Virus record (IMG/VR): IMGVR_UViG_3300005253_000062
Location: 1 to 48,300 of that record
Length of the DNA stretch: 48,300 nt
Source: a virus
Strand: one strand, 5' to 3'
Shown: positions 1 through 42,317 of the stretch, one piece after another
How the letters are laid out: every line of letters starts with the position of its first letter
Numbering within the stretch: position 1 is the stretch's first letter
Position numbers and translations under genes: made by a program
The notes under the pieces: generated by a model
The model's input: the letters and a program-made list of their open reading frames with translations, nothing else
Told to the model about the DNA's origin: nothing
Database searches by the model: none

Positions 1-121
1 GTAACGTCATTGTTATCTTTGATTAAGACCTGTGACGTTGTTCCGGTAGCGGTAGTCACCGGGACGGATATTACAACCTTGAGCAAAATCCCGTTGATGT
101 TAATTGCCTGGGTCGCAACAC
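1..121. repeat. Terminal direct repeat, copy 1 (circular assembly overlap)
   Basis: These 121 bases are identical to 48180-48300. A gene reads continuously across the join, so the repeat marks a circular assembly (an overlap of one k-mer length) or a terminally redundant genome, not a true internal duplication. Confidence 0.97.
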
Positions 122-1584: not shown

Positions 1585-4500
1585 CTATGCATCAGGTATT
1601 ACTGCCGTCCTAACAGCGCCGAGATTGGTGTACGATACACCGATCCATCCGTCTGTAATATGATAGGTAAAGACAATCACATCGGTATCGGTGGCGAGAT
1701 ATTCAGTGCCGCCATCCGATGTATCGACGTTGTTGATAGTATCGTTACCGGCGGTAAGCGTTCTGATCTCGAAGTTGCCGCCTGCGTTGCAAAAGATCGT
1801 TACCTTTGTGCCCATTGGTGGGTTGTCCGGCAAGGTGATGAACTCAGTAACCCCTGTCGTGCCAGTGACGTTGCCGAATCTAATACCATCATTAACCTGT
1901 TGGCCTGCACCTTCTGCCCCGGCGGTAGTAAGGGTCTCACCCACGCCGGACTGAAGACCTAGTGCAGCCGACAGTGTTTCGTCAATCACAACAATCCCGG
2001 AATCTACGTGGATAGCTTCGTTGTTGGTCGAATCAATGTGCATGACGTACTCAGTGCCGCCGCCCGAAGTCGAAGTATCGACCATGTTGAGGGCAATACC
2101 TTCCTGACCGCTGATGTTCGTTCCAGATGAAGCTATTCTGAGCATTGTCGCCGTTGTGGCGGCAGCGGTCCCGTCATTGGTCAGGTGGACCATACCAGTA
2201 GAAGCAGCACCGACCCAGCCCGCACCGGCATCGCCAATTACCTTTTGGAGTGAAGCCGTCGTACTTGCAACACCGACTATGTGAATACCAGTTGCAGTAG
2301 TGGCGTTAGGAGTCACTTGAAGAACGTCAGCCGTTCCGACTCCTACTAACTGGACCGTGTCGTCGTCAGTATCGGCGCTTGTAATATCCAGCAATACGCC
2401 GTCAGTTGCACCCTGACCTGCGATAGTCATCTGGCCGTTGAGCCTCAAGTTCGGCGTAGTGGCAGTGACTTCGATCTCGACTGCATAGGCGTCGGTTACA
2501 GCCGCTCCGGTATCTTGAACGAATCTCGCCAAGAATCCTTCAGCAGCAGCTATGGTGGTTCCGGTATTATGCACCATCAACTGTGTCGCACCCGTATTGA
2601 CCACTGCATCGTCTTGCGTGAGAGTCAACTGGCCGATATTATCAGCACCGTCCCAGTTATTCGATGCGCCGTCGAGCGTGACCATAGACACAGTAGACGC
2701 GGCAAAGGCTGTGATGTTGATACCGCCTGTGTCAGTCTCGCCCGGAGTGATCTGTAAAGCATTGCCCGCGCCCGTAAGAGAAATCAGCACTGCATCCTGG
2801 TCGTCGCCTGCGGCTACACCGACTACTGACAGCATAGTACCACCGGAATTATCCTGCTGGGTGAAGGTCGTAAGGCCATTCACCGCCAAAGCAGGTTGGG
2901 TGGCGGGAACCTCAATCTCGACAGCAGTTGCGGACGCGGTAGCCGAACCGGAATGAATAAATCTCGCTAAGAAACCTTCACCGCTTGCTATCGGTGTGCT
3001 GCTATCGAGAACAACAATCGCGGACGCTCCCGTGTGAATATAAGGATCATCAGCCTGGATCAGTAGTTGGCCTTTATCATTGGCAAGGTCGATGTTATTC
3101 GTGGAGCCATCCAGAATCGCCAACGGGACAGTCCCGGAGGCTACAGCGACTATATTCAGACCGCCGGTATCGGTCTCGCCGGGGCTTATCTGTAAGGAAT
3201 CACCTGCACCAGTGTTAGAGATTGACATAGCATCAGCGTCACCGGAAGCACCCACGCCCACGACCTGAAAGAGCGTATCGCCAGCAGCATCTTGGCCATT
3301 GATCGCCGTGATACCATTCACTGCGAGCGCAGGTTGGGTGGCGGGAACCTCGATTTCAACTGCTGTTGCAGTAGCGGTGGCAGAACCTGAATGGACGAAC
3401 CTTGCTAAAAATCCTTCACCTGAAGCAATAGGCGTACTGCTATCAAGGATCATCAGTGCCGTCGCCCCGGTGTGAATGTAGGGATCGTCGGCCTGAATGA
3501 GTATCTGTCCTTTGTCGTCAGCTAAGTCAATGTTGTTCGTAGAGCCGTCGACTATGATTAACGGTACTGTACCGGACGCAGCAGCAATGACATTGATACC
3601 ACCAGAGTCGGCTTCGCCGGTTGTAATCTGTAGGGCGTCACCGGAACCTTGATGCGCAACCAATACCGTATCTGAGTTGCCGCCTGTATCAATTCCTGTA
3701 ATAGTCAGGAGATTACCACCGTTATTGATACCAGTAATAGTCTGGCTCGAACCTGTGAGAATCAGTGATCCGTTTGTGTCGCCATTCTGGTCCCATGTTA
3801 GATTGGAACCGACAGTCTCTCCGTAGAAGATATTGTCCACGCCGGTTCCGTCTATGCCAGTCGTAATGCCACCTGTACTGGTAAGACCTACTGAAGTTAG
3901 CAATCCAGCCTGATTGACACTCCAATTATCGCCTGCGATATCAGTACCACTTGGTTGACTGTCTATCGTAAGGCCGGTTCCAGTGTGTCCGGCGCCCATT
4001 GTGATCGTCATTGCGTCGGGATCGTTAGTCGAGTCGTCCTGAGTCAACGCCAAAAGCACCGTATTATCAGCAACGTCGTTATCGAATATAACCGATGCAG
4101 TGTCGACATCTATCGTACTACCTACGTTGTAGGCAGCATCCAGGCTGACTGAAGAACCAGTTTCAATCTCGGTCCACGTAGTGCCGTTCTTGCTGACGAA
4201 AAGCGTCTTGGCAGTAAGGTCATAGTACACCTTACCTTCGATAATGTCGTTATTCGTAGGCGCGGCAATAGGTGTATACTCGAACGTACCGGACGCAACC
4301 ACATCCCGAAGCCATTGCGATAGAGATTCAGGATTCGATGCGATGTCGTAGTTGATATCGCTCTTGATGAACTGACCATGAGTTACCGAGACAAAAAGTA
4401 AGCTCGCAATCACGATTGATGTCAATACTTTCTTCATAGCAAAACCCTTCTTCGGCTTCTTCGGCTTCTTCGGCTTCTGGCGAACACAACCAGCCAATTC

Positions 4501-4622: not shown

Positions 4623-5213
4623 CTATGCAGCTTCGGGGAAAGGCACACCAAGCTTGTCGTAAATCGCCTTATCGAGAATCACCCCGAATTTGGCGTCTTG
4701 AGGAGCGTCGCCGTAGACTTCATACCTATACCTTCTCTTATGACCTATGATAGTCGAGATCATATTGTCTACTCTCGAATTCGGGTTCTGACGCATAGCG
4801 TGAATGGGACGCTTACCGATAGGATTGTTCATATCCTTGTTCTCGTCTATCAGGCATTGCGGTAGAACATGCAAATAACCGTGATAGAGATGGAAGGTAT
4901 GCGTACAACCCTTATTGAATTCGATATCAGCCTCGTCATCGTTTGCGTCTTCATAGACTGCGTACACCTTCTTCGAGTTGGCGATAGCAATTGTTTCAGG
5001 TGCAGGTTTAGCCTTCGTCTGAGGATCGAGCGAAAGCATAGCAGACACATCCTTGGCCCGCTCTGCCTTCGCTTTTTCCTTCAACTCAATTTCCTTCTTG
5101 TAAACAGCGACCTGAACCATTTCCTCAAGCTTCTCGTACTTGATATTCGGCGGTACTTTAAGCCCAAGCTTCTTGGCCTTTTCTCTAAGCTGCTCTATTG
5201 TTAATTCACTCAT
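4623..5213 (-). CDS. Virion-region protein with N-terminal HeH/SAP-like helix motif
   Basis: 196 residues. The N-terminus (SELTIEQLREKAKKLGLKV, then KYEKLEEMV) matches the two-helix pattern of HeH/LEM/SAP domains, which phages often place at the ends of small structural proteins. A Lys/Glu-rich linker follows (about 35-70), then a compact region with NPIGKRPIHAMRQNP. The gene lies between a decoration-like protein and the repeat fibre and has a good GAAAGGGAAG site. A head accessory role is inferred from position; no enzyme motif is visible. Confidence 0.6.
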   Translation of the reverse strand: MSELTIEQLREKAKKLGLKVPPNIKYEKLEEMVQVAVYKKEIELKEKAKAERAKDVSAMLSLDPQTKAKPAPETIAIANSKKVYAVYEDANDDEADIEFNKGCTHTFHLYHGYLHVLPQCLIDENKDMNNPIGKRPIHAMRQNPNSRVDNMISTIIGHKRRYRYEVYGDAPQDAKFGVILDKAIYDKLGVPFPEAA

Positions 5214-5235
5214 AATGGTCTTCCCTTTCTACTGA

Positions 5236-5892
5236 TTAAAGTCCGTCTACTCCGCTGGTAAAGTTGGCGACATCCTGATGATCCACAACGAAATCGGACA
5301 TCATGGCGGTGTAGTACATTTCCTGACCGTTCGTCATCAAGGCGGCGGCGACTCTAAAGCCTTTGTAGCCACCCAAGAACGTCGCCTGGTCGGTTATCTT
5401 ACGCCAGATAACTCCGTTGTCGGACGCAGTGTCGTCGTTGATATCAGCGGGCCACGTCGGCTCCGTAGAGTCGGTTGTCCCTGACGTGATACACTCGAAC
5501 AACACACTCCTGTCAACCAGAAGTCCGTTCTTATCCGTGGCTGTGAGAGTACCCCTTACGAGATCGCCTCGTTTAGTGGCACTTCTTTGCGTGTAGGCCG
5601 TTGACGCCTGCCAGTCGGCGGTAATTGCCCCTAAAGTCTGCGGGCCTTGAGTGCCGGTGTCGTAAGCTGCGAAGCCACCGGCGGCGGCGGCGAGCGTCTT
5701 CGTACCTGCGGTGTCAATGATGCCTTCCGTTGATTCGGCGTCTTCCATTTCCTGACCCCACCAGTAATACAGAAGCGGGTTCGCTGTTCCGTATTCGGCT
5801 ACGAACAAAAAGTCGGGAACGAAACCTACCGGGATGAAAACGATTGAACCGTCCGGCTCGAAATGTCCGGTTACTATACTATTAGCATTCAT
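5236..5892 (-). CDS. Putative head decoration / carbohydrate-binding-like protein
   Basis: 218 residues, directly downstream of the major capsid gene. Residues about 90-175 contain the pattern DWQASTAYTQ ... GDLVRGT ... VLFECITSGTTDSTEPTW ... DNGVIWRK. This is the small beta domain (WxAxTxYxxGDxV ... Y.C...GTS..EPTWP ... DG.V.W) found as an add-on in phage capsid decoration and tail proteins, thought to bind carbohydrate. The ribosome site TAAGGAG is strong. Being next to the capsid gene suggests a head decoration protein expressed at high level; specific ligand unknown. Confidence 0.6.
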   Translation of the reverse strand: MNANSIVTGHFEPDGSIVFIPVGFVPDFLFVAEYGTANPLLYYWWGQEMEDAESTEGIIDTAGTKTLAAAAGGFAAYDTGTQGPQTLGAITADWQASTAYTQRSATKRGDLVRGTLTATDKNGLLVDRSVLFECITSGTTDSTEPTWPADINDDTASDNGVIWRKITDQATFLGGYKGFRVAAALMTNGQEMYYTAMMSDFVVDHQDVANFTSGVDGL

Positions 5893-13923: not shown

Positions 13924-14072
13924 TATTTAAGCTCTGAGGTTGGCTTTTGGTCGACCACTTTCTTTGTGCACTTCGGGCAAATACCCCACTTGACAGGCTT
14001 ATTGACGTGCATGCACCGGCACTGGGTAATCACAACCTTGCACTCTTTGCATTTCTCGATAAAGTGGCTCAT
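13923..14072 (-). CDS. Small cysteine-rich zinc-binding protein, 49 residues
   Basis: ATG at 14072 gives MSHFIEKCKECKVVITQCRC and ends STSELK-like (KPTSELK). Cysteines occur as CKEC, CRC and CPKC, the arrangement of a small zinc ribbon. Its TAG overlaps the GTG of terS by one base. Probably a DNA- or RNA-binding accessory of the packaging region; function inferred only from the cysteines. Confidence 0.75.
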   Translation of the reverse strand: MSHFIEKCKECKVVITQCRCMHVNKPVKWGICPKCTKKVVDQKPTSELK

Positions 14073-17023: not shown

Positions 17024-17467
17024 TGCGAAAATACTTGATTTTGTTCTGGACAGGTTTTAACAATTGTGGTGTTTGTAATAATTATTATGATGAAGGCTGC
17101 GACACAAGCTCGAATGGAAACTTATCAGCAGGGACGCACTTTACCCCGGCGGCGGCGTAGCCTTCGTCAGTTCCTCTCGTCGTCGGGCTTTGCGATTATC
17201 CGCGAAAGCGGTTCACGAATTGGGCAGGGTAGACATGGCCAGTATTATGTACGACGGTGCGTAATGAGTGTTATGTTAGCGGTTCTTTGTCGAAAGCTGG
17301 ATAAGGATAGCCTACCTTGCCCAAACCACTCATTCAGCCTGCCCCATTCCAATCAAGATATGCTACGTGACAGGATGTTTCAACGCGGCCCGTCCCGAAC
17401 ATTTCCTCTCCCTCCGCACGGGCGGGCCGCGTTATTATTGAAAGAATAGGCAGATTGAGAGGTCGAA
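17024..17467 (+). other. Gene-poor stretch ending in a GC-rich hairpin
   Basis: An open frame of 127 codons exists (17066-17449) but lacks a ribosome site and has low-complexity Arg/Ser/Pro composition, so I do not call it. The stretch has an AT-rich start with TATGAT near 17089, a CCGC-GAAA-GCGG tetraloop hairpin at about 17199-17210, and an 11-bp stem AACGCGGCCCG/CGGGCCGCGTT (17392-17402 with 17423-17433) followed by ATTATTGAAAG. It may encode a structured RNA. Confidence 0.5.
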
Positions 17468-18516: not shown

Positions 18517-18591
18517 GGAACGGTAGCTCAGTCTGCGTAGAGCGGCCGCCTGAAAAGCGGCAGGTCGTCGGTTCGAATCCGTCCCGTTCCA
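18517..18591 (+). tRNA. tRNA-Phe(GAA)
   Basis: Acceptor GGAACGG/CCGTTCC (7 bp), D arm GCTC/GAGC, anticodon stem GCCGC/GCGGC with loop CTGAAAA (anticodon GAA), T loop TTCGAAT, discriminator A. One T-stem mismatch. CCA is not encoded. It lies in an intergenic stretch, as phage tRNAs usually do. Confidence 0.93.
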
Positions 18592-20107: not shown

Positions 20108-20329
20108 ATGAGCCTAAGAACCAGACAGAACATATCGAACGACGGCCTGGACGACAGGATAGCACGCTTCGTTCATGCGCAACGGACGGGCGACTGGCTG
20201 AATTACCCACCGGCGGAGATAGATGAGCACCCTACGTTCCTAGCGGCCTTTGAGGCCAAGCGCAGGACTCGTAAGATGCTAATGAAGAGTAAGCAACAAA
20301 TTGAACATAAAAAAGATTTGACAACATAG
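20108..20329 (+). CDS. Hypothetical protein beside the iteron array
   Basis: 73 residues, MSLRTRQNISNDGLDDRIAR ... WLNYPPAEIDEHPTFLAAFE, basic helical tail RRTRKMLMKSKQ. Short, charged, no known motif. It follows the GTGTCC repeats directly and could act on them, but that is speculation from position. The promoter of the first small RNA overlaps its 3' end. Confidence 0.65.
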   Translation: MSLRTRQNISNDGLDDRIARFVHAQRTGDWLNYPPAEIDEHPTFLAAFEAKRRTRKMLMKSKQQIEHKKDLTT

Positions 20330-20346
20330 ACAGGAAGCGTTACTTT
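20318..20346 (+). promoter_or_regulatory. Promoter of small RNA locus 1
   Basis: TTGACA (20318-20323), 17 bp, TACTTT (20341-20346). The same TTGACA-17-TACTTT occurs at 23951-23979 before small RNA locus 2. Expected start is about 20353. Confidence 0.7.
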
Positions 20347-20352
20347 AACAAT

Positions 20353-20440
20353 ATGGACAGTACGATTACACTGATGAATCAAGAGTTGCTGGGGAAGAGC
20401 ATGTCTTCGTGCTGTCCAACTTCCCTGGTAACTTCTTTTT
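20353..20440 (+). ncRNA. Pseudoknot-terminator small RNA 1 (leader of the AP2-HNH gene)
   Basis: From the expected start: A TGGACAGTAC (20354-20363), B GTTGCTGGGGAAG (20385-20397), A' GTGCTGTCCA (20409-20418), B' CTTCCCTGGTAAC (20420-20432), then TTCTTTTT. A:A' is 10 bp with one wobble; B:B' is 13 bp with three wobbles and forms a terminator hairpin whose loop holds A'. The order A-B-A'-B' allows a pseudoknot or two exclusive folds. Two other loci share the design. It could be a stand-alone RNA of about 85 nt or an attenuator for the nuclease gene, whose ribosome site starts just after the T tract. Confidence 0.6.
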
Positions 20441-20454
20441 CTGAGGATGTTGTC

Positions 20455-20943
20455 ATGCCAAAAGAAATAAAGCTAACCCAAGGATTACAAGCGACCGTAG
20501 ACGATGACGATTACAAGCAAGTGAGTCAACATAAATGGCACGCAATCAAGTCGCCTTATGGATTTGTGGCCCAGAGAACTTGTTGTTGCCCATTCAGCAA
20601 CGGGCACCCACATTCAATTTTCATGCACCGACAGATTATGTCATGTCCTCATGGGCGAGTTGTTGACCATATCGACCATAACAGGCTAAATAATCAAAAA
20701 GGTAATTTGCGATGTTGTACCCGAGCAGAAAACAACGCCAATACCCGATCTAGGAAAAATAGTAGCAGTAAATACAAAGGCGTCCATTGGTATGAACCTA
20801 CACATAAATGGCTTGTTCGCATACAAGTACGTGGCAATAATATGTATCTTGGGTATTTTGACGACGAGTCTGAGGCTGCTAGAGTGTACGACAAGGCTGC
20901 TGTAAAATACCATAAAGAATTTGCCAACCTTAACTTTAAATAA
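20455..20943 (+). CDS. HNH homing-type endonuclease with AP2 DNA-binding domain
   Basis: 162 residues from ATG 20455 with GAGGA upstream. Residues 1-60 form the pre-HNH region (beta, with HKWHAIKS). VDHIDHNRLNN (70-80) and NLRCCTRAENN (84-94) are the HNH catalytic core of the HNH_3 class. Residues about 105-160 (SKYKGVHWYEPTHKWLVRI ... GYFDDESEAARVYDKAA) are a complete AP2 domain for DNA binding. Such genes are selfish elements common in phages. Its own promoter and structured leader set it apart from the surrounding operon. Confidence 0.92.
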   Translation: MPKEIKLTQGLQATVDDDDYKQVSQHKWHAIKSPYGFVAQRTCCCPFSNGHPHSIFMHRQIMSCPHGRVVDHIDHNRLNNQKGNLRCCTRAENNANTRSRKNSSSKYKGVHWYEPTHKWLVRIQVRGNNMYLGYFDDESEAARVYDKAAVKYHKEFANLNFK

Positions 20944-20954
20944 AGGAGATTACA

Positions 20955-21857
20955 ATGGAACCGGCTGTTGATGTGGAAATTATGGACACGGAAGTCGAAC
21001 TCCAAGTCTTTGACGAGGTATCGCTGGCGGTCGAAGCGGCCAAGAAGAAATGCGCTGATATCGTCTTAAAGTACGACACCCCCAAAGACATAAAGGACGC
21101 CAAGAGCTTCATCTACGATATCAGACTACTCAAAGCCCCGATCACCCAGGCTCATAAGATGGCCAAGGCCCAGCTCATAGTCGATGGTCGGGCAATGGAC
21201 GCCAAGAAGAACATGCTGATTGGCGCTCTTGAGTCAATGATCGAAGAGAAATACGCCCCGATCCAGCTCATCGAGGACGCCGAGGCCAAGAAGAAAGCCG
21301 AAGAAGAGCGGATGGAAGCCGAGCGGCAGGCAGAGTTCGACGCCGAACAGGCTAAATTCGAAGCGGGAAAGGCCGAACTCGCCGCTAAACAAGCAGAGTT
21401 CGAGCAAAAGGAACGTGACGCACGCATCGCCGAGGAAGCTGAGAAGAAGGCCGCAGAGGATGTGAGACAGGCTATTGTAGACGCGGAGTTTGCCAAGATA
21501 GCTGCCGAAACCAAGGCCAGGCAAGACGCCACCAACGCCGAGAACGCCCGCAAGCAAGCTATCGTAGACGCTGAGAACGCAAAAGCTGTCGCCGTCCAGA
21601 AAGCCAAGGACGAAGCTGCTGCCGAGGCTACTGAGCGTGAACAAGAACTCGCACAGGAACGCCGGGCAGAAGAGGCTCGTATCGCAGAAGAGCAAGCCGC
21701 CGAAGAGTTGCGCACCGCCGACGTAGAGCATCGAAGGACAGTCCATAGAGAGATATTGGCGATCTTTACGGGCATGGGCATGGGCGAGGACTTCGCCAAG
21801 ACATTGATTACCGCTATCAGCAAAAATCATATTCCGCACACGAAGATAGAATATTAG
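20955..21857 (+). CDS. Long coiled-coil protein of phage recombination/replication cluster
   Basis: 300 residues. The N-terminal 100 residues are helical (YDTPKDIKDAKSFIYDIRLL). Residues about 105-260 are an Ala/Glu/Lys-rich coiled coil. The C-terminus (IFTGMGMGEDFAKTLITAI then IPHTKIEY) matches a conserved tail of phage coiled-coil proteins usually coded beside SSB, RecT or nuclease genes (G....AK.....I....IP...I.Y). Here an SSB-like gene follows two genes later. Role in DNA recombination is inferred from context; no catalytic motif is present. AAAGGAG precedes the ATG. Confidence 0.7.
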   Translation: MEPAVDVEIMDTEVELQVFDEVSLAVEAAKKKCADIVLKYDTPKDIKDAKSFIYDIRLLKAPITQAHKMAKAQLIVDGRAMDAKKNMLIGALESMIEEKYAPIQLIEDAEAKKKAEEERMEAERQAEFDAEQAKFEAGKAELAAKQAEFEQKERDARIAEEAEKKAAEDVRQAIVDAEFAKIAAETKARQDATNAENARKQAIVDAENAKAVAVQKAKDEAAAEATEREQELAQERRAEEARIAEEQAAEELRTADVEHRRTVHREILAIFTGMGMGEDFAKTLITAISKNHIPHTKIEY

Positions 21858-21859
21858 AT

Positions 21860-22030
21860 ATGGGAATAGTACAGAGCAAAGATACTGATGGCTATACGCC
21901 TGTATGCAACGATTGCGGCATACATCTATGTTTTGATATATCATTCGTGGAGTGTGAAGACTGCGACCCGGACGTGTATGGTTCGCGGAAATTATATAGA
22001 AAGCTTCATAAAAAAAGGAGAAGCACATGA
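21860..22030 (+). CDS. Small zinc-ribbon protein, 56 residues
   Basis: ATG 21860, stop overlapping the next ATG (ATGA). MGIVQSKDTDGYTPVCNDCG then LCFDISFVECEDCDPD: CNDC and CEDC pairs make a four-cysteine zinc ribbon; the tail is basic (YRKLHKKRRST). Likely a small DNA-binding accessory of the SSB-like protein with which it is coupled. Confidence 0.75.
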   Translation: MGIVQSKDTDGYTPVCNDCGIHLCFDISFVECEDCDPDVYGSRKLYRKLHKKRRST

Positions 22031-22686
22031 ATTTTGCAGCAGTAAGAGCAGCACCTGGAAATTACATCCAGCTACAGGTTGTGGTGACAGACATCCAGCA
22101 TAGGCAAGGGGATTTCGGAGCCTGGGCATCCGGGAAAGCTCAAGACGGACATGGGGTTATCGAGGATGTATCATTTGCAGTGGCAGGCAAAGATAGACAG
22201 GGACAGCCACGAGTTTTCCCAACAGCCTTAGCTGTAAATCACCGAATCAACTGCGCTGGGAAATTTGACGCCAAAACAAACAAAATGCGTATATATTTCG
22301 ACAGCTTGGTCTTGGGCGAAGCTCCGGCCCCGAAGTCGTACCCGCCCGCCGGACAGCCAGCACAGCCCACACCACCGCCCCAGCAAGCCACACCACCGCC
22401 TCGTCAGCCTGCGAACGCTGCTCCCCCTGCCAGAGACGCCACTGGAGTCAGTATCGAGCGACAGGTATGCGTTAAGACTGTTGGAGTGCAGGCGGCGGCG
22501 AGTGCGGAAGCGGAACACCCACTGACTCTACGCGAAGCCGCTGCATGGCTGACCTTTTACGCTCACTGGATTGAAACAGGACAGTTCGTCTTCACTGAGT
22601 CGGCAACTTTGGCAACTCAACCAAGTGGCCCGAACCCAGCTTACAACCCTGATGGGCAAGAAGGCGACGAAGATTTGCCATTTTGA
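22027..22686 (+). CDS. SSB-like single-stranded DNA-binding protein
   Basis: 219 residues. Residues 1-105 are beta-rich and fit an OB-like fold (YIQLQVVVTDIQ ... FGAWASGK ... KMRIYFDSLVLGE). A Pro/Gln/Ala linker follows (about 106-145), then a helical region (REAAAWLTFYAHWIETG), and the C-terminus is GDEDLPF, the acidic tip with terminal Phe typical of SSB proteins that recruit replication partners. The N-terminal half is not a canonical bacterial SSB, and the extra helical region is unusual. The call rests chiefly on the acidic tip and the neighbours. Confidence 0.65.
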   Translation: MNFAAVRAAPGNYIQLQVVVTDIQHRQGDFGAWASGKAQDGHGVIEDVSFAVAGKDRQGQPRVFPTALAVNHRINCAGKFDAKTNKMRIYFDSLVLGEAPAPKSYPPAGQPAQPTPPPQQATPPPRQPANAAPPARDATGVSIERQVCVKTVGVQAAASAEAEHPLTLREAAAWLTFYAHWIETGQFVFTESATLATQPSGPNPAYNPDGQEGDEDLPF

Positions 22687-22808
22687 TCTAACGGCGTTCT
22701 GAGCATAGACGACTGGTATTCAGTCAGACAGCGAAAGCGAAACGAGAACGGGAAGATCACCCGAACTTTACCGTCTATGCCTTTTCGCCACTACCAGGAG
22801 TTAGAGAT

Positions 22809-23219
22809 ATGCAGTGTGGACATTATCATTCGATGCAAATACAGTACAAGGGCATTCCTGGCTGGGTATGTTACGATGGTAGGTGTCTGTTTTGCCGCGA
22901 AAAGCAACTCCAAGCCGAGAACAAAACGTTGAAGGAAGAACTCGAAACCCACCGCTGGATTCCCGTAGAAGAGACATTGCCGAAAAAGAACGAATCATAT
23001 CTTGTTTTTAACAATAACGTAGTAATGGTCTTCAAGTGGTTTGGTAAAGAGGAACAATGGGGTGGGCTATACTCAATAACTCACTGGAAGCCAATAACTC
23101 TTCCCAACAAAGAAAGCAGCGGTAAATGCAATGTAGGCATAGGGCAATTCGACCACAATCCTCAGATATTAAAGAAGGCGATAATGTACCTAAAGAAGCC
23201 AATAACCCTACCGGAGTAA
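22809..23219 (+). CDS. DUF551-containing protein
   Basis: 136 residues. WIPVEETLPKKNESYLVFNN through the stretch ending ITHWKPITLP is the DUF551 pattern (WI.V...LP....YLV ... ITHW.PLP), a small beta domain frequent in phages and of unknown function. It is preceded by a cysteine-containing region (CYDGRCLFCREKQLQAENKT) with a short coiled coil. The C-terminus repeats KPITLP, hinting at partial duplication. GGAGTTAGAGAT before the ATG. The 120 bases upstream hold GCATAGACG/CGTCTATGC, a 9-bp pair. Confidence 0.75.
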   Translation: MQCGHYHSMQIQYKGIPGWVCYDGRCLFCREKQLQAENKTLKEELETHRWIPVEETLPKKNESYLVFNNNVVMVFKWFGKEEQWGGLYSITHWKPITLPNKESSGKCNVGIGQFDHNPQILKKAIMYLKKPITLPE

Positions 23220-23259
23220 GAGATATGCAAGAAATATACCTAGGCTTTAAGAAAACAGA

Positions 23260-23697
23260 ATGTCAACCTATCCCGTAAAACTAATACTGGACGATGGCCC
23301 GACCTTCGAGAAACCCTTGTCTGAGATTCTCAGCGAACTCTCACTGGGTGGGGCTATCAAGATACTCAGCGCGATAGATTACATCACAGACGCCCAGAGA
23401 CGCTGGTACAAGGGCGTGTGTCTACCAGCCCTGGTCAAGGCCGATGAGAACGGAGAAACGGCTGAGTGGTGGGATACGGAGTGTAAAAGGCTATGTGGTG
23501 GTCTGGCTTACCTCAAGCGAGATGTTATCTTTGTAGAAATCGGCTTTGCCGGTGGAAAACAGACTGTTGGAGTTGGCCGGTTGACCACCAAAGGAGTTGG
23601 TATCCGCAAAATGACCGCCTTTATCGAGGAGATTCTATCACAAGCAATGCAAAGAGGTTGGCCAGTATCGCCACCTGACCCGGAGTTGAGGAAATAA
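23260..23697 (+). CDS. NinB-like recombination protein (putative)
   Basis: 145 residues. TDAQRRWYKGVCLPALVKA, then EWWDTECKRLCGG, and the end RKMTAFIEEILSQAMQRGW and PVSPPDPE resemble the NinB/Orf family (QRR.Y......P......, S.....EF...IE.I...A...GI..P.P). NinB proteins bind single-stranded DNA and aid RecA-type recombination, which suits the SSB-like gene nearby. The match is by pattern only. A 17-codon ORF (ATG 23225) ends inside its start and may be a coupled leader. Confidence 0.55.
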   Translation: MSTYPVKLILDDGPTFEKPLSEILSELSLGGAIKILSAIDYITDAQRRWYKGVCLPALVKADENGETAEWWDTECKRLCGGLAYLKRDVIFVEIGFAGGKQTVGVGRLTTKGVGIRKMTAFIEEILSQAMQRGWPVSPPDPELRK

Positions 23698-23698
23698 C

Positions 23699-23983
23699 AT
23701 GGCTGTAACACCAACCGATAGAATGCAGGTGGCGGCGTTCCACACGATATACAAAACGCTGCGGAAAAGGGATTCCGGCTACCAGGAACGGAAAAAACAC
23801 AGTTCTCTTGAAAAGGACTTCTGCGAAGCGATAGTCGTAACAAGCGATGACAGGATGGAAAACGCAGACCCGGCGCTTATTGAACAGTGGTTGCGAAACT
23901 ACTCTAAGCAGTGGTTGCGAAACTACTCTAAGAAAAATAAAGATTTATTATTGACAGCCGAGGGCAGAGAGGTTACTTTGTGA
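23699..23983 (+). CDS. Hypothetical protein with tandem QWLRNYSK duplication
   Basis: 94 residues. MAVTPTDRMQVAAFHTIYKT, then a central helix, and QWLRNYSK twice in a row (residues about 62-77), from an exact 24-nt tandem duplication at about 23885-23932. The 3' end of the gene contains the promoter of small RNA 2 (TTGACA-17-TACTTT). No family recognised. Confidence 0.7.
   Translation: MAVTPTDRMQVAAFHTIYKTLRKRDSGYQERKKHSSLEKDFCEAIVVTSDDRMENADPALIEQWLRNYSKQWLRNYSKKNKDLLLTAEGREVTL
23951..23979 (+). promoter_or_regulatory. Promoter of small RNA locus 2
   Basis: TTGACA (23951-23956), 17 bp, TACTTT (23974-23979), identical in boxes and spacing to 20318-20346. Expected start about 23986-23990, right where pairing segment A begins. 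Confidence 0.7.
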
Positions 23984-23985
23984 TT

Positions 23986-24074
23986 GTGATGTCCGAAACA
24001 GTGAAACAATACGAATTATTAAAGCCCCGCGCAGACTGTTTCGGACGACAGAATTGCCGGGGCTTTTCCTTTTT
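23986..24074 (+). ncRNA. Pseudoknot-terminator small RNA 2
   Basis: A GTCCGAAACAGT (23991-24002), B AAAGCCCCG (24021-24029), A' ACTGTTTCGGAC (24035-24046), B' CGGGGCTTT (24058-24066), then a T-rich tract to 24074. A:A' is a perfect 12 bp and B:B' a perfect 9 bp. B:B' is an intrinsic terminator with A' in its loop. Promoter, order of segments and distance from the start match the other two loci, while the paired sequences differ. About 85 nt long if transcribed alone. Confidence 0.65.
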
Positions 24075-24089
24075 GACAACTGAATAACA

Positions 24090-24156
24090 GCAGAGTAGCA
24101 TAATTGGTAATGCGCGTCTGAAAAGGCGACTTAAGGGTTCGATTCCCGCCTCTGCT
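24090..24156 (+). tRNA. Degenerate tRNA-like sequence (tRNA-Phe remnant?)
   Basis: 67 bases. GCAGAG/CTCTGC acceptor, GCAT/ATGC D stem with AATTGGTA loop, TTCGATT T loop with GGG/CCC stem. The anticodon arm is short (CGTCT-GAAA-AGGCG) and the loop TGAAAA suggests a former GAA anticodon. Too short and mispaired for a normal tRNA, so it is likely a decayed copy or a tRNA mimic. It lies between small RNAs 2 and 3. Confidence 0.5.
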
Positions 24157-24190
24157 CTTGGTATTATAGAAAAAATGTTGAAGAATTATC

Positions 24191-24219
24191 TTGCAATATT
24201 TGAAATAGGAGTGTAGGTT
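24191..24219 (+). promoter_or_regulatory. Candidate promoter of small RNA locus 3
   Basis: TTGCAA (24191-24196), 17 bp, TAGGTT (24214-24219). Weaker than the promoters of loci 1 and 2, but placed the same distance from segment A. TTGCAATAT also occurs in the early promoter candidate at 14597. Confidence 0.45.
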
Positions 24220-24225
24220 GAGCAA

Positions 24226-24319
24226 CATGGACCGAATCAAGATGACAAATTTAATTAAAACTTGCCCCAGGGACGATTTGCCTTCCGCGATTCGGTCCAA
24301 TCCCTGGGGCTTATTTTTT
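24226..24319 (+). ncRNA. Pseudoknot-terminator small RNA 3
   Basis: A TGGACCGAATC (24228-24238), B GCCCCAGGGA (24264-24273), A' GATTCGGTCCA (24289-24299), B' TCCCTGGGGC (24301-24310), then TTATTTTTT. Perfect 11-bp and 10-bp pairings. As in locus 1, A' and B' are one base apart, and the A' to B' junctions are alike (GTCCAATCCCTGG here, GTCCAACTTCCCTGG there). The terminator is among the strongest in the window. Confidence 0.65.
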
Positions 24320-24353
24320 AGACAAATAGCGGTGAATGCTGAAAGAGAGAGCT

Positions 24354-24506
24354 ATGTCTTGGCTTGACAACTCTACAACCCATTGTGCGTCTGAGTCGGT
24401 GCCGTGGGGAGCGTCTGTAAAGAAGAGCGAGTGCCTGCAACACGCCGGACCTGTAGGCTATACTCGTGGACTCAGCGACCGAAGCGAACGACGACGGGCG
24501 ACGTGA
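24354..24506 (+). CDS. Hypothetical protein, 50 residues
   Basis: ATG 24354 after GAGAGAGCT; MSWLDNSTTHCASESVPWGA ... GYTRGLSDRSERRRAT. Short, basic C-terminus, two cysteines. It follows the terminator of small RNA 3 directly. A weak ribosome site makes it moderate. Confidence 0.5.
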   Translation: MSWLDNSTTHCASESVPWGASVKKSECLQHAGPVGYTRGLSDRSERRRAT

Positions 24507-25818: not shown

Positions 25819-26048
25819 GTCAAGTTAAAAAATGGGCCGTCACCGGCTTCGCCACGCTCGCTGAGAGCAAGAAGCTCGCCGATAAGGTAATTACTATGCT
25901 TTCTGAGTACGAGGGCAGGCCGGACGAAATGGGGACGCTCAAGCGGTATCTGGACCAGGAGCACAGATACACAGTGGCGCAGGGCCGGGAGATTGATAGT
26001 ATGTGGCAAATATTCACGAAGCCGAAGAAAGCCAGGAGAAAGAAATGA
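25815..26048 (+). CDS. Hypothetical basic protein before the RNA ligase
   Basis: 77 residues, MSQVKKWAVTGFATLAESKK ... GTLKRYLDQEHRYTVAQGRE, tail KPKKARRKK. Helical and basic, so RNA or DNA binding is possible. It overlaps genes on both sides by ATGA and is coupled to the ligase gene. Confidence 0.65.
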   Translation: MSQVKKWAVTGFATLAESKKLADKVITMLSEYEGRPDEMGTLKRYLDQEHRYTVAQGREIDSMWQIFTKPKKARRKK

Positions 26049-26803
26049 GTAAGAAACCACTTGGCCGCAAATCTTATGGAAGCATCCCACACCTGCCCGG
26101 CAGTCGTCGCGGCCCTGGCGATCATGGGTGCGACGAAGGCACGGCTAGAATAGCCACAATAAAGACCCGCGACAAACACGACGTTGTCATCGTTCAAGAA
26201 AAGCTCGACGGCAGTAATGTCGGAGTCTGCAAACTCAACGGAGAAATCATTGCTCTCGGTCGAGCCGGGTACAGGGCCGGAACGTCACCCCACGAACAGC
26301 ATCGAATGTTTGCAGCATGGGTTGGTCGCAATCGTGAACGGTTCGACGGCCTCTTGGTTGAAGGTGAGAGAGTTTGCGGTGAATGGTTGGCTCAAGCTCA
26401 TGGTACGAGATACGACCTGCCACACGAGCCGTTTGTGGCGTTTGATATTATGACTGGGACATCGCGTGTAGTTTATGATGAACTCTATGTCCGTATTCAC
26501 CGCTACGGTTTCATTAAGCCATTCACGATTCACTGTCTCCCAGAAGCCTATGCGATTGACAAGGCTATGGCTGTAGTGCAGGGGGTAAACGTTCACGGTG
26601 CCATTGATCCCGTAGAAGGTTGCGTGTGGCGTGTCGAACGGAATCGGCTCATTGATAAACATTCAGGTAAACGAAAGCAAGTAGTGGATTTCCTCGTTAA
26701 GTACGTTCGGCCTGATAAAGTCGATGGATGTTATTTGCCAGAAGTGAGCGGGAAAGACGCTATCTGGAATTGGAGACCGCAGTCGAGGAAGAAAAATGGC
26801 TAA
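26045..26803 (+). CDS. RNA ligase family protein (Rnl2-like nucleotidyltransferase)
   Basis: 252 residues from ATG 26045 (ATGA overlap). All main motifs are visible: motif I EKLDGSN (52-58, Lys53 the adenylation site), motif III region GEWLAQAHG (112-120), motif IIIa FVAFDIM (130-136), motif IV EGCVWR (191-196), motif V FLVKYVR (216-222). Enzymes of this family seal nicked RNA through an AMP-lysine intermediate, and in phages they repair tRNAs cut by host anticodon nucleases. No polynucleotide kinase gene was seen. Neighbour on the right is a PD-(D/E)XK nuclease; a tRNA is carried elsewhere. Confidence 0.88.
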   Translation: MSKKPLGRKSYGSIPHLPGSRRGPGDHGCDEGTARIATIKTRDKHDVVIVQEKLDGSNVGVCKLNGEIIALGRAGYRAGTSPHEQHRMFAAWVGRNRERFDGLLVEGERVCGEWLAQAHGTRYDLPHEPFVAFDIMTGTSRVVYDELYVRIHRYGFIKPFTIHCLPEAYAIDKAMAVVQGVNVHGAIDPVEGCVWRVERNRLIDKHSGKRKQVVDFLVKYVRPDKVDGCYLPEVSGKDAIWNWRPQSRKKNG

Positions 26804-28716: not shown

Positions 28717-29556
28717 ATGCCAACTAAAATCCCCTACGCCCAAAGGAATTGGGAAACAGTCGGCGGCTGCGAGAAGATCAAGTCCGGCTGCAAGAACTGT
28801 TACGCCGTGAACCTCATTCACCGCTTTTCCTGTAACCCAGTTCACAAGGGCCGGTACGAAGGGCTCGTCAAGAACGGCAACTGGACGGGTAAGATCAAGC
28901 TGTTTGACGATAGACTTGAGCAGCCCTTGCGCCGACACATTCCGACGACGTACTTCGTCAATTCGCGCAGTGATCTTTTTCACAAGGACGTGCCGTTCGA
29001 GTTTGTCAAGAAGATGTGGGACGTCACGGCAAAGACGCCTCGGCATACCTACTTGTTCTTTACGAAACGTTGGAGGCGCGCGTTGGAGTTCAGTCAATGG
29101 ATGGCGGGGCATGACGATATTTCGATTGCGGAATGGCCTCGCAACGTCCACCTGTACTTCTCAGCGTCCACTCAGGCCGAGGTCGATGAGGCTGTGCCGA
29201 TTCTATTGCAGATACCCGTTGCCATGGGTGGATTGAGTTATGAACCGGCATTAGGGCCATTGGATATAAGCGAATTTGAAGAGGAAGAGTGGCGGTGTGA
29301 TGGTTGTGGTTACGCAGAGAGGCATTCAGAGTATCGCAACCAACTCGGTCACATAATCGTAGGCTGCGAATCCGGCTCGAACCGTCGCCTCTGCTCCGTC
29401 GAGGACATCAAGAGCGTAGCTGACCAGTGCAAAGACGCCGGAGTGCCCTGCTACGTCAAACAGATCCCCATAGACGGTAAATGCGTCCCTCTCAAAGAGG
29501 ACAATAGAGCAATCTGGCCAGCGTGGGTTGTGCAGGAGATGCCAAATGAAGTATAG
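28717..29556 (+). CDS. DUF5131 (phage Gp37/Gp68-like) protein
   Basis: 279 residues. The family markers are the start RNWETVGGCEKIKSGCKNCY (cysteines and W.P..GC....GC..CYA), YFVNSRSDLFHKDVPFEFV (.V.S.SDLFHE.VP), the middle TYLFFTKR, and C-terminal IIVGCESGSNRR ... DQCKDAGVPCYVKQ. The cysteine layout suggests an iron-sulfur or radical-SAM-like relative, but the family's role is unknown. A cysteine pair insert (CDGCGY, about residue 193) is present. Start is the ATG after AAAGGATAACG. Confidence 0.9.
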   Translation: MPTKIPYAQRNWETVGGCEKIKSGCKNCYAVNLIHRFSCNPVHKGRYEGLVKNGNWTGKIKLFDDRLEQPLRRHIPTTYFVNSRSDLFHKDVPFEFVKKMWDVTAKTPRHTYLFFTKRWRRALEFSQWMAGHDDISIAEWPRNVHLYFSASTQAEVDEAVPILLQIPVAMGGLSYEPALGPLDISEFEEEEWRCDGCGYAERHSEYRNQLGHIIVGCESGSNRRLCSVEDIKSVADQCKDAGVPCYVKQIPIDGKCVPLKEDNRAIWPAWVVQEMPNEV

Positions 29557-40950: not shown

Positions 40951-42317
40951 TACTTCACACCTAACTGCTTGTTGATTTCAGCTAATTCTTTGTCTATGTC
41001 AATAATTTGTTGCGTATTCCTTCCTTGTGGTGATGGGCCACCTAAATCAAACGCCTTTGCTCCGCCAAAGATAAACTTCTCGTTAAGCTTTCCTTCGTCT
41101 GCAATTACCGAGAATTCATTGAATGCTTCGTTAAAGCTTCCCTTGTGACTCTTGAATATCTCATTTGCAAGATCACGAATTTCTTTGCGATCTTCCTGCG
41201 TAAAGCCAAGCCCACCTTTTAGTAAAGCATCAATTTTGCCCCTTATTCTATTTATAAGACGCTGCCCCTCAAACGTTGTTGCAAACTCCCCTTCTCTGAC
41301 TGTGGATCGTATGTCAGTTAGTTTTTGAAAATCCTTTGCAAGGGCAATATCAGTTGGGCCGAAATTTTTCTTTATCTTTAACGACCGATCATGCACAATA
41401 TTTATACTGTCTACGAATTCCTTCGCCTCCCTCAAGTTCTTTACTCGCTGGTCCGCACTAAATTCTCTTCTAAGTGTTAGTGCCAATTTCTGCTTGTCAT
41501 CCCCGCTAATATCGAGTTTGACTAAAGGCGAACCAAGCTCATCTCTATCAATTATTGCTTGCTGCCTCTTTGTTCGATCTTCTTCCGGGGTCGCCCTCGC
41601 ACTTGCCACCGCCTCATTAAAGCGTCGAGCTTTTACTTCTGATGCCGTAGGAGCCTTTCCGGGTGGATGTATCATCTTGAATTCACCTGTTTGTTCGTTG
41701 AACTGCCCGGTAGCCCCTATGGGCAAACCAGTGCCGTCACCTTCCTGCACAGTAAATGGTTCGCCGAACGATACTCCTCTATCTCTAATGTCTTTTGCCG
41801 TTGCTCGCACTTCCCCTGTCGCCGCCCTTCTCTGATCTGCGCTACGAGCTTCAAGAAGACTTCGTTGATTCTCTCTCTCTAATGGGTCGCTAAATGTCCC
41901 ACCAGATTGTATGATAGATTGCCGTGTCGCATTCGCAGTCGAATTATTGACTCTCACACCCTGCTCTTGGCCTTGAGCATCGAAAAACTTTATTGTAAAC
42001 GGCGTACCCTCTGCTATCCTACGGGCAGTCGTCGTCGCTACGTCACGGCGTTGCTGGATACCTTCTCGCTGTATATCAAAACCCTGCTGCTGACCAGGAG
42101 TTATCGGCTGATTCTGCAATGCTTGATTCTGGAATATATTCTGAGCGAACAACTGTTGTCCCTGCTGGCTCTGGGGTACGAAGCCGGGATTAGTCAAGTT
42201 CTGCAAATCGCTTGCGAACTTGATCTTCTCTTGCCCTTGTAGTAACCCTTGAAAAGCGGGAACCAAAAACCCTAGAGGGTTAAAGCCTTGGGTTGGCGGT
42301 GGTACAAAACTAGCCAT
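40950..42317 (-). CDS. Putative internal virion protein
   Basis: 455 residues, Gln/Asn-rich N-terminus (QPITPGQQQGFDIQREGIQQ), charged helical body with DRSLKIKKNFGPTDIALAKD and a C-terminal coiled coil (IIDIDKELAEINKQLGVK). It sits between the two other putative ejection proteins and overlaps the next start. No known family; role by position. Confidence 0.55.
   Translation of the reverse strand: MASFVPPPTQGFNPLGFLVPAFQGLLQGQEKIKFASDLQNLTNPGFVPQSQQGQQLFAQNIFQNQALQNQPITPGQQQGFDIQREGIQQRRDVATTTARRIAEGTPFTIKFFDAQGQEQGVRVNNSTANATRQSIIQSGGTFSDPLERENQRSLLEARSADQRRAATGEVRATAKDIRDRGVSFGEPFTVQEGDGTGLPIGATGQFNEQTGEFKMIHPPGKAPTASEVKARRFNEAVASARATPEEDRTKRQQAIIDRDELGSPLVKLDISGDDKQKLALTLRREFSADQRVKNLREAKEFVDSINIVHDRSLKIKKNFGPTDIALAKDFQKLTDIRSTVREGEFATTFEGQRLINRIRGKIDALLKGGLGFTQEDRKEIRDLANEIFKSHKGSFNEAFNEFSVIADEGKLNEKFIFGGAKAFDLGGPSPQGRNTQQIIDIDKELAEINKQLGVK

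Follow-up and report, generated by a model that had tools for sequence, protein, structure and literature searches.

We describe an RNA element that occurs three times in a 48,300-nt stretch of viral DNA, positions 1 to 48,300 of the IMG/VR record IMGVR_UViG_3300005253_000062 (hereafter the window, meaning this whole stretch). At each locus a promoter is followed by four segments in the order A-B-A'-B', where A can pair with A' and B with B', A' lies in the loop of the B:B' hairpin and a U-run follows; the RNA is predicted to begin at or beside an ATG, which opens a frame that runs through the whole fold. We propose, with a probability of about 0.55, that these loci are translated 5' leaders acting in cis, each of which would bury its own start codon and terminate transcription unless a ribosome enters first. 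The promoters and pairings, with B:B' as terminator, had been pointed out in a preliminary description of this DNA and are confirmed, together with the U-runs, by the sequence and the computed pairings, while the ATG, the open frame, the nearby downstream genes and a fourth copy had passed unnoticed. The earlier interpretation is partly supported and extended here, the mechanism being of the leader attenuator type as far as sequence allows us to infer.

Structure of the element

The promoters of loci 1 and 2 are identical in boxes and spacing, as had been claimed, and the record holds exactly two copies of TTGACA-17-TACTTT (20318 and 23951; backward-read control, 0). The whole elements span 20353-20440, 23986-24074 and 24226-24319, with the following features:

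Locus 1
20318..20346, + strand, promoter TTGACA-17-TACTTT, from a motif search of the record
20353..20355, + strand, leader ATG at the predicted RNA start; its open frame is fused in frame with the HNH gene
20354..20365, + strand, segment A, computed to pair with 20407-20418
20381..20397, + strand, segment B, computed to pair with 20420-20437
20407..20418, + strand, segment A', inside the B:B' loop
20420..20443, + strand, segment B' (20420-20437) and U-run, predicted terminator
20455..20943, + strand, HNH/AP2 homing-type endonuclease gene 3' of locus 1 (Pfam HNH_3, PHROG 99)

Locus 2
23951..23979, + strand, promoter TTGACA-17-TACTTT, from the same motif search
23989..24087, + strand, leader frame of 32 codons, open across the terminator
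23990..24002, + strand, segment A, pairs with 24035-24047
24021..24034, + strand, segment B, whose core 24021-24029 pairs with 24058-24066
24035..24047, + strand, segment A', from computed pairing
24054..24073, + strand, segment B' and U-rich tail, terminator predicted from sequence and pairing

Locus 3
24191..24219, + strand, promoter-like site TTGCAA-17-TAGGTT, weaker than the promoters of loci 1 and 2
24227..24367, + strand, leader frame of 46 codons, open across the terminator
24228..24238, + strand, segment A, partner of 24289-24299; contig L023 has two compensating changes here
24264..24273, + strand, segment B, partner of 24301-24310; L023 has three compensating changes here
24289..24299, + strand, segment A', from pairing and comparison with L023
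24301..24318, + strand, segment B' (24301-24310) and U-run, predicted terminator

Fourth copy
17057..17187, + strand, probable weaker copy with promoter-like TTAACA-17-AATTAT, ATG at 17087 and a poor U-run; helix A, 17088-17101 with 17156-17169; helix B, 17145-17155 with 17177-17187

Helix A:A', first given as 10, 12 and 11 bp at the three loci, was computed as 12 bp counting G-U pairs (with a 10-bp core inside), 13 bp and 11 bp. The lengths given for B:B' (13, 9 and 10 bp) were all recovered, and those of loci 1 and 2 extend to 17 and 13 bp if one bulge is allowed. Duplex energies are ample for both helices (-15 to -28 kcal/mol for A:A' and -10 to -30 kcal/mol for B:B'), and a folding programme blind to pseudoknots picks either one helix or the other; that both form simultaneously, as a true pseudoknot, is our proposal.

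The pairing pattern is simple and single and the first three loci were picked by eye, so that chance pairing at a few promoters had to be considered. Across about 3 Mb of sequence the fold follows 18 of 10,329 promoter-like sites, with scores of at least 54 in 12 of the 18, against 0 of 2,046 downstream sequences after shuffling. When the window itself was shuffled 40 times by dinucleotides, folds with a T-rich tail arose 0.2 times per window, at a looser threshold. A scan of six viral genomes that ignored promoters placed its strong matches mostly at known promoter-ATG sites and also recovered the weaker locus at 17087, the exceptions being echoes of known copies on the reverse strand, a tract of repeats and isolated matches in G9 and G16. 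The fold moreover recurs in unrelated contigs and carries compensating changes in a homologue, both described below. As an account of the fold, chance is refuted by these results, and we give it almost no credence as an explanation of the loci.

The differing sequences of the three loci had been read as covariation inside one genome, which is weak evidence by itself because pairing was the criterion by which the loci were spotted. True covariation was found in contig L023 (IMGVR_UViG_3300005253_000027), whose copy at 13985 is a homologue of locus 3 and aligns with it without gaps across the element. All 21 of 21 pairs are kept, five of them altered on both sides and one turned into G-U, and none is broken. 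Structures slid by 1-3 columns on this alignment show zero double changes. Shuffling has little power on two sequences (19 of 500 shuffles reach the observed value), but the slid controls are clean. Taken with the statistics of the frame given below, the sequence data give good support to the element and to its open frame.

Recurrence in other viruses

The design was recovered in at least 11 copies in seven other viral contigs: four in L023/G007 (at 3291, 9902, 12210 and 13985), two in G009 (IMGVR_UViG_3300028610_000388, a syntenic relative of the window) and one each in L121, L158, L187, L190 and L198. These and window loci 1-3 are the 14 members considered below; L159, which has the fold and the open frame without a clear downstream gene, is less sure, was counted apart and makes 15. 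The family is real and reaches beyond one genome. Nine copies (three in the window, four in G007 and two in G009) were found without requiring an ATG. The other five came from a scan of viral contigs with the pattern TTGACA-17-TANNNT-(5-9)-ATGGAY-(45-75)-RTCCA, which hit at least 119 loci and gave the full design in five among the matches listed, with L159 in doubt.

The first comparison genomes came from protein searches with window genes. The product of 20955-21857 gave no relatives, and with the portal only two short fragments were hit. The product of 26003-26803 led to unrelated contigs that carry a mobile RNA-ligase gene, and that of 28717-29556 to the syntenic relative L020/L021. L023 is the closest HNH relative, and among 45 loci of HNH relatives it was the sole one with the element. 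Window loci 1-3 sit in stretches that are missing from the matching place in G009. In cellular genomes a stricter promoter-ATGGAY-RTCCAAC pattern had 21 matches, none of them structurally comparable (under a permissive test one reached a score of 32), and eight named phage records (218 kb) held no element. The DNA of loci 2-3 had only chance matches in phage records, and the pattern AAATTTANTTNAAACTTGCC matched only L023 and an unrelated AT-rich contig. The element looks viral and patchy, spread over unrelated contigs, because it recurs across viral contigs and is absent from the cellular matches and the eight named phage records.

Rfam 15, searched with permissive E-values, gave no match at the loci in the window or L023, nor at the copy inside L020; the preliminary description knew of no precedent either. 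Hepatitis delta virus (HDV)-like ribozymes share the A-B-A'-B' order, but their helices are short and they are not known to carry a terminator.

Two other A-B-A'-B' folds with a U-run and a good promoter, both without a leader frame, were seen in L066 (4882-4783, - strand, with a 23-bp helix B) and in L025 (7620-7706, + strand, directly 5' of a gene).

The start codon and the leader frame

In all members the ATG lies at or next to the RNA start predicted from promoter spacing. The start of helix A ranges from 4 nt upstream to 6 nt downstream of this ATG, most commonly falling on its T, and the ATG adjoins the start of A also in the nine members found without an ATG requirement. In all 15 members, L159 included, no stop codon interrupts the frame of the ATG before B' ends; of the other two frames, one stays open that far in 1 member and one in 5. 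Multiplied together, the chance probabilities give 1.4e-8, calculated on members that are not fully independent, as locus 3 and its homologue are both counted. This frame has 30-46 codons or runs on in frame into the downstream gene. The element would in this sense be a translated leader and not a plain noncoding RNA.

The first in-frame stop lies 3' of the hairpin in 15 of 15 members, often 6-14 nt beyond it (range 6-54 nt, unfused frames). The terminated RNA may then be a message with a start but no stop codon, which would trap ribosomes or feed trans-translation; E. coli arfA is such a case, where the message may also end before any stop codon, and regulatory non-stop messages have been described (PMC10107115). 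We hold this to be very unlikely for the viral element, since A:A' would hide the start codon of that same RNA and block ribosome loading. Besides, arfA encodes a functional protein (PMC10107115), whereas the viral leaders have no common peptide.

Leaderless initiation is plausible, judging from promoter spacing: the -10 box lies 6-9 nt 5' of the ATG in most members, this spacing being a search condition in five. Bacteria are known to have leaderless genes whose -10 box adjoins the ATG at a distance of a few bases (PMC12340547, PMC3160421), but these head ordinary proteins without a terminator fold in the frame, which the viral element has. In the genomes of the window, G007, G009, L121 and L187 the fold was found at promoters adjoined by an ATG and not at promoters without a nearby ATG, and some leaderless-looking genes there have no fold.

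A 203-kb virus, G019 (IMGVR_UViG_3300050821_001527, of which L233-L243 are part), carries 40 TTGACA-17-TANNNT-5..9-ATG sites, mostly in two clusters (backward-read control, 0). They mostly head frames of ordinary length, 49-271 codons, and this virus apparently has many leaderless genes.

Downstream genes

In 11 of 14 members the promoter, leader frame and predicted intrinsic terminator precede a same-strand gene, which begins 96-121 nt after the leader ATG. Five of these 11 genes are of homing nuclease type: HNH/AP2 genes follow window locus 1, L023 9902 and L121, a DUF559 nuclease gene follows the L158 copy and an Endonuclease VII gene (PF02945) follows L023 12210. The protein downstream in L187 resembles a replication organiser, its relatives being annotated as DnaD-domain or replication initiation proteins, and that of L198 looks like a replication organiser by resemblance only; the remaining four genes have no recognised identity. 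A likely ribosome-binding site lies 3' of the terminator at window locus 1, L023 9902 and L023 12210. The idea that the leader is always in frame with a homing endonuclease was dropped, because 4 of 11 fits one in three.

The preliminary description had left the choice between a family of pseudoknotted RNAs and self-contained attenuators. The attenuator half is favoured, because a same-strand gene stands shortly after the terminator in these 11 members. A stand-alone, trans-acting small RNA would have the terminated 90-nt RNA as its product, its pseudoknot guarding both ends, and the compact fold, the paired 5' end and the 3' terminator would suit it, as would window loci 2 and 3 and L023 13985, which have no obvious downstream gene. 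This seems quite unlikely to us, given the narrow 96-121 nt distance in most members, the conserved open frame and the lack of any single-stranded sequence common to members that could serve as seed or protein site.

Proposed mechanism

The attenuating leader that we favour would be about 100 nt long. RNA polymerase would start at or within a few bases of the ATG, leaving an mRNA leaderless or nearly so, and segment A would stay open to a ribosome until A' emerges some 50-75 nt later. A:A' would then bury the start codon and B:B' would form the intrinsic terminator, in this order because A' is made before B'. A' and B' are one base apart in 8 of 14 members, so that strand could run on unbroken through both stacked helices, as a rod of about 21-32 bp with the 5' end of the RNA at a nick in its middle. 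The default product would be a terminated RNA of about 90 nt with a hidden start codon. A ribosome that loads early and trails the polymerase would keep the helices apart, so that the terminator is passed and the ribosome reaches the start of the downstream gene; the result may be a low, ribosome-dependent expression of homing endonucleases and perhaps of replication genes.

Ribosomes are able to override intrinsic terminators, and in the short pyrBI leader it is pausing that allows them to do so (PMC4824070). Several points nevertheless weigh against the proposal. In E. coli a terminator 30 bp after the start codon kept all but about 10% of its efficiency under translation, terminators within 100 bp of the start of a coding region are mostly functional, and the first ribosome catches up with the polymerase after about 100-200 nt (PMC4824070). 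Ribosome relief may hence be slight unless the polymerase pauses, for which no site was recognised, and read-through would require unusually early ribosome loading or a pausing polymerase. Set against that catch-up distance, a leader of 80-100 nt makes termination by default likely, and the element is likely off by default. The leader peptides neither resemble each other nor are conserved among members, and inspection by eye found no shared control codons in them; the differences between locus 3 and L023 13985 are about equal at all codon positions, without third-position excess. In the five later members the search pattern included the ATG, which does not count there as independent evidence. 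Comparable folds whose leader frame is short or lacking occur in L090, in the virus of L187 (at 29844), in L066 and in L025, and the three members named above have no obvious gene to control. With unconserved peptides, what seems to matter is translation as such, and the peptide itself is probably unimportant.

The element could also be a constitutive or protein-controlled attenuator, read through by a phage antiterminator or by chance and not by virtue of leader translation. Fold, U-run and downstream gene are all present for it, early terminators in E. coli mostly work, translated or not (PMC4824070), and being off by default suits nuclease genes that are to be kept low. We consider it unlikely, because it leaves unexplained both the ATG frame that is open in all 15 members while the others are mostly closed, and the ATG beside A in members found without an ATG requirement.

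Among known systems, the viral element would work most like the E. coli pyrBI attenuator, which also has a short translated leader before the gene and a terminator within the leader frame, where the proximity of the ribosome could set read-through; the pyrBI-type attenuator is relieved by transcription-translation coupling. The control device is nonetheless undescribed: the proposed burial of the start codon, the putative pseudoknot of which the terminator is one half, and the predicted leaderless start of the mRNA set this viral element apart from pyrBI. The T4-type homing endonuclease hairpins (I-TevI, segB, mobE) are likewise structured leaders by an endonuclease gene that limit expression (PMC2988022). 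They cover the gene's own ribosome-binding site, whereas the viral element would have a buried 5' start codon and a built-in terminator and is not of this type, because the gene's likely ribosome-binding site lies uncovered after the U-run.

Other observations in the window and its relatives

A degenerate tRNA-like sequence (Rfam tRNA, 33 bits; no ARAGORN call) lies between loci 2 and 3 at 24089-24157 of the window, which has an intact tRNA-Phe at 18517-18591. A direct repeat of about 24 nt (CAGTGGTTGCGAAACTACTCTAAG) stands at 23888-23933, at the end of the gene preceding locus 2. Just 3' of locus 2, at 24068-24090, the window shares the flank TTTGACAACTGAATA with G009 41345-41500, where two more hairpins with T-runs are found.

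Window 22688-22806 and L020 8626-8758 hold a conserved structured noncoding stretch (TGAGCATAGACGNCTGGTA...GCGAAAGC...CTATGCC) 5' of small genes, that of the window being DUF551-like; it has 24 predicted pairs, three altered on both sides, and no Rfam match. In L020, at about 5000-5290 and 5' of a tRNA-Ile gene, a tract ends in a T-arm-like hairpin with an acceptor-like pairing, followed by a T-run.

Significance

Tentatively, and with somewhat less than even confidence, we see in these loci a patchy, widespread and undescribed class of viral RNA, in which a leaderless start codon, its antisense and an intrinsic terminator would form one pseudoknotted rod with a central 5' end, and a race between ribosome and polymerase would decide the expression of mobile and replication genes. 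Such a class would escape RNA searches based on sequence, and it comes up when the design itself (promoter, ATG, A-B-A'-B', open frame) is searched for. If the proposal is true, it would constitute a compact viral rule with hardly any fixed sequence, as any A and B with their complements would do, which ties expression to immediate ribosome loading at a leaderless ATG. Homing endonucleases and other genes would thereby have an off-switch that evolves easily, and there would be a natural system in which to measure how fast ribosomes catch up with RNA polymerase.

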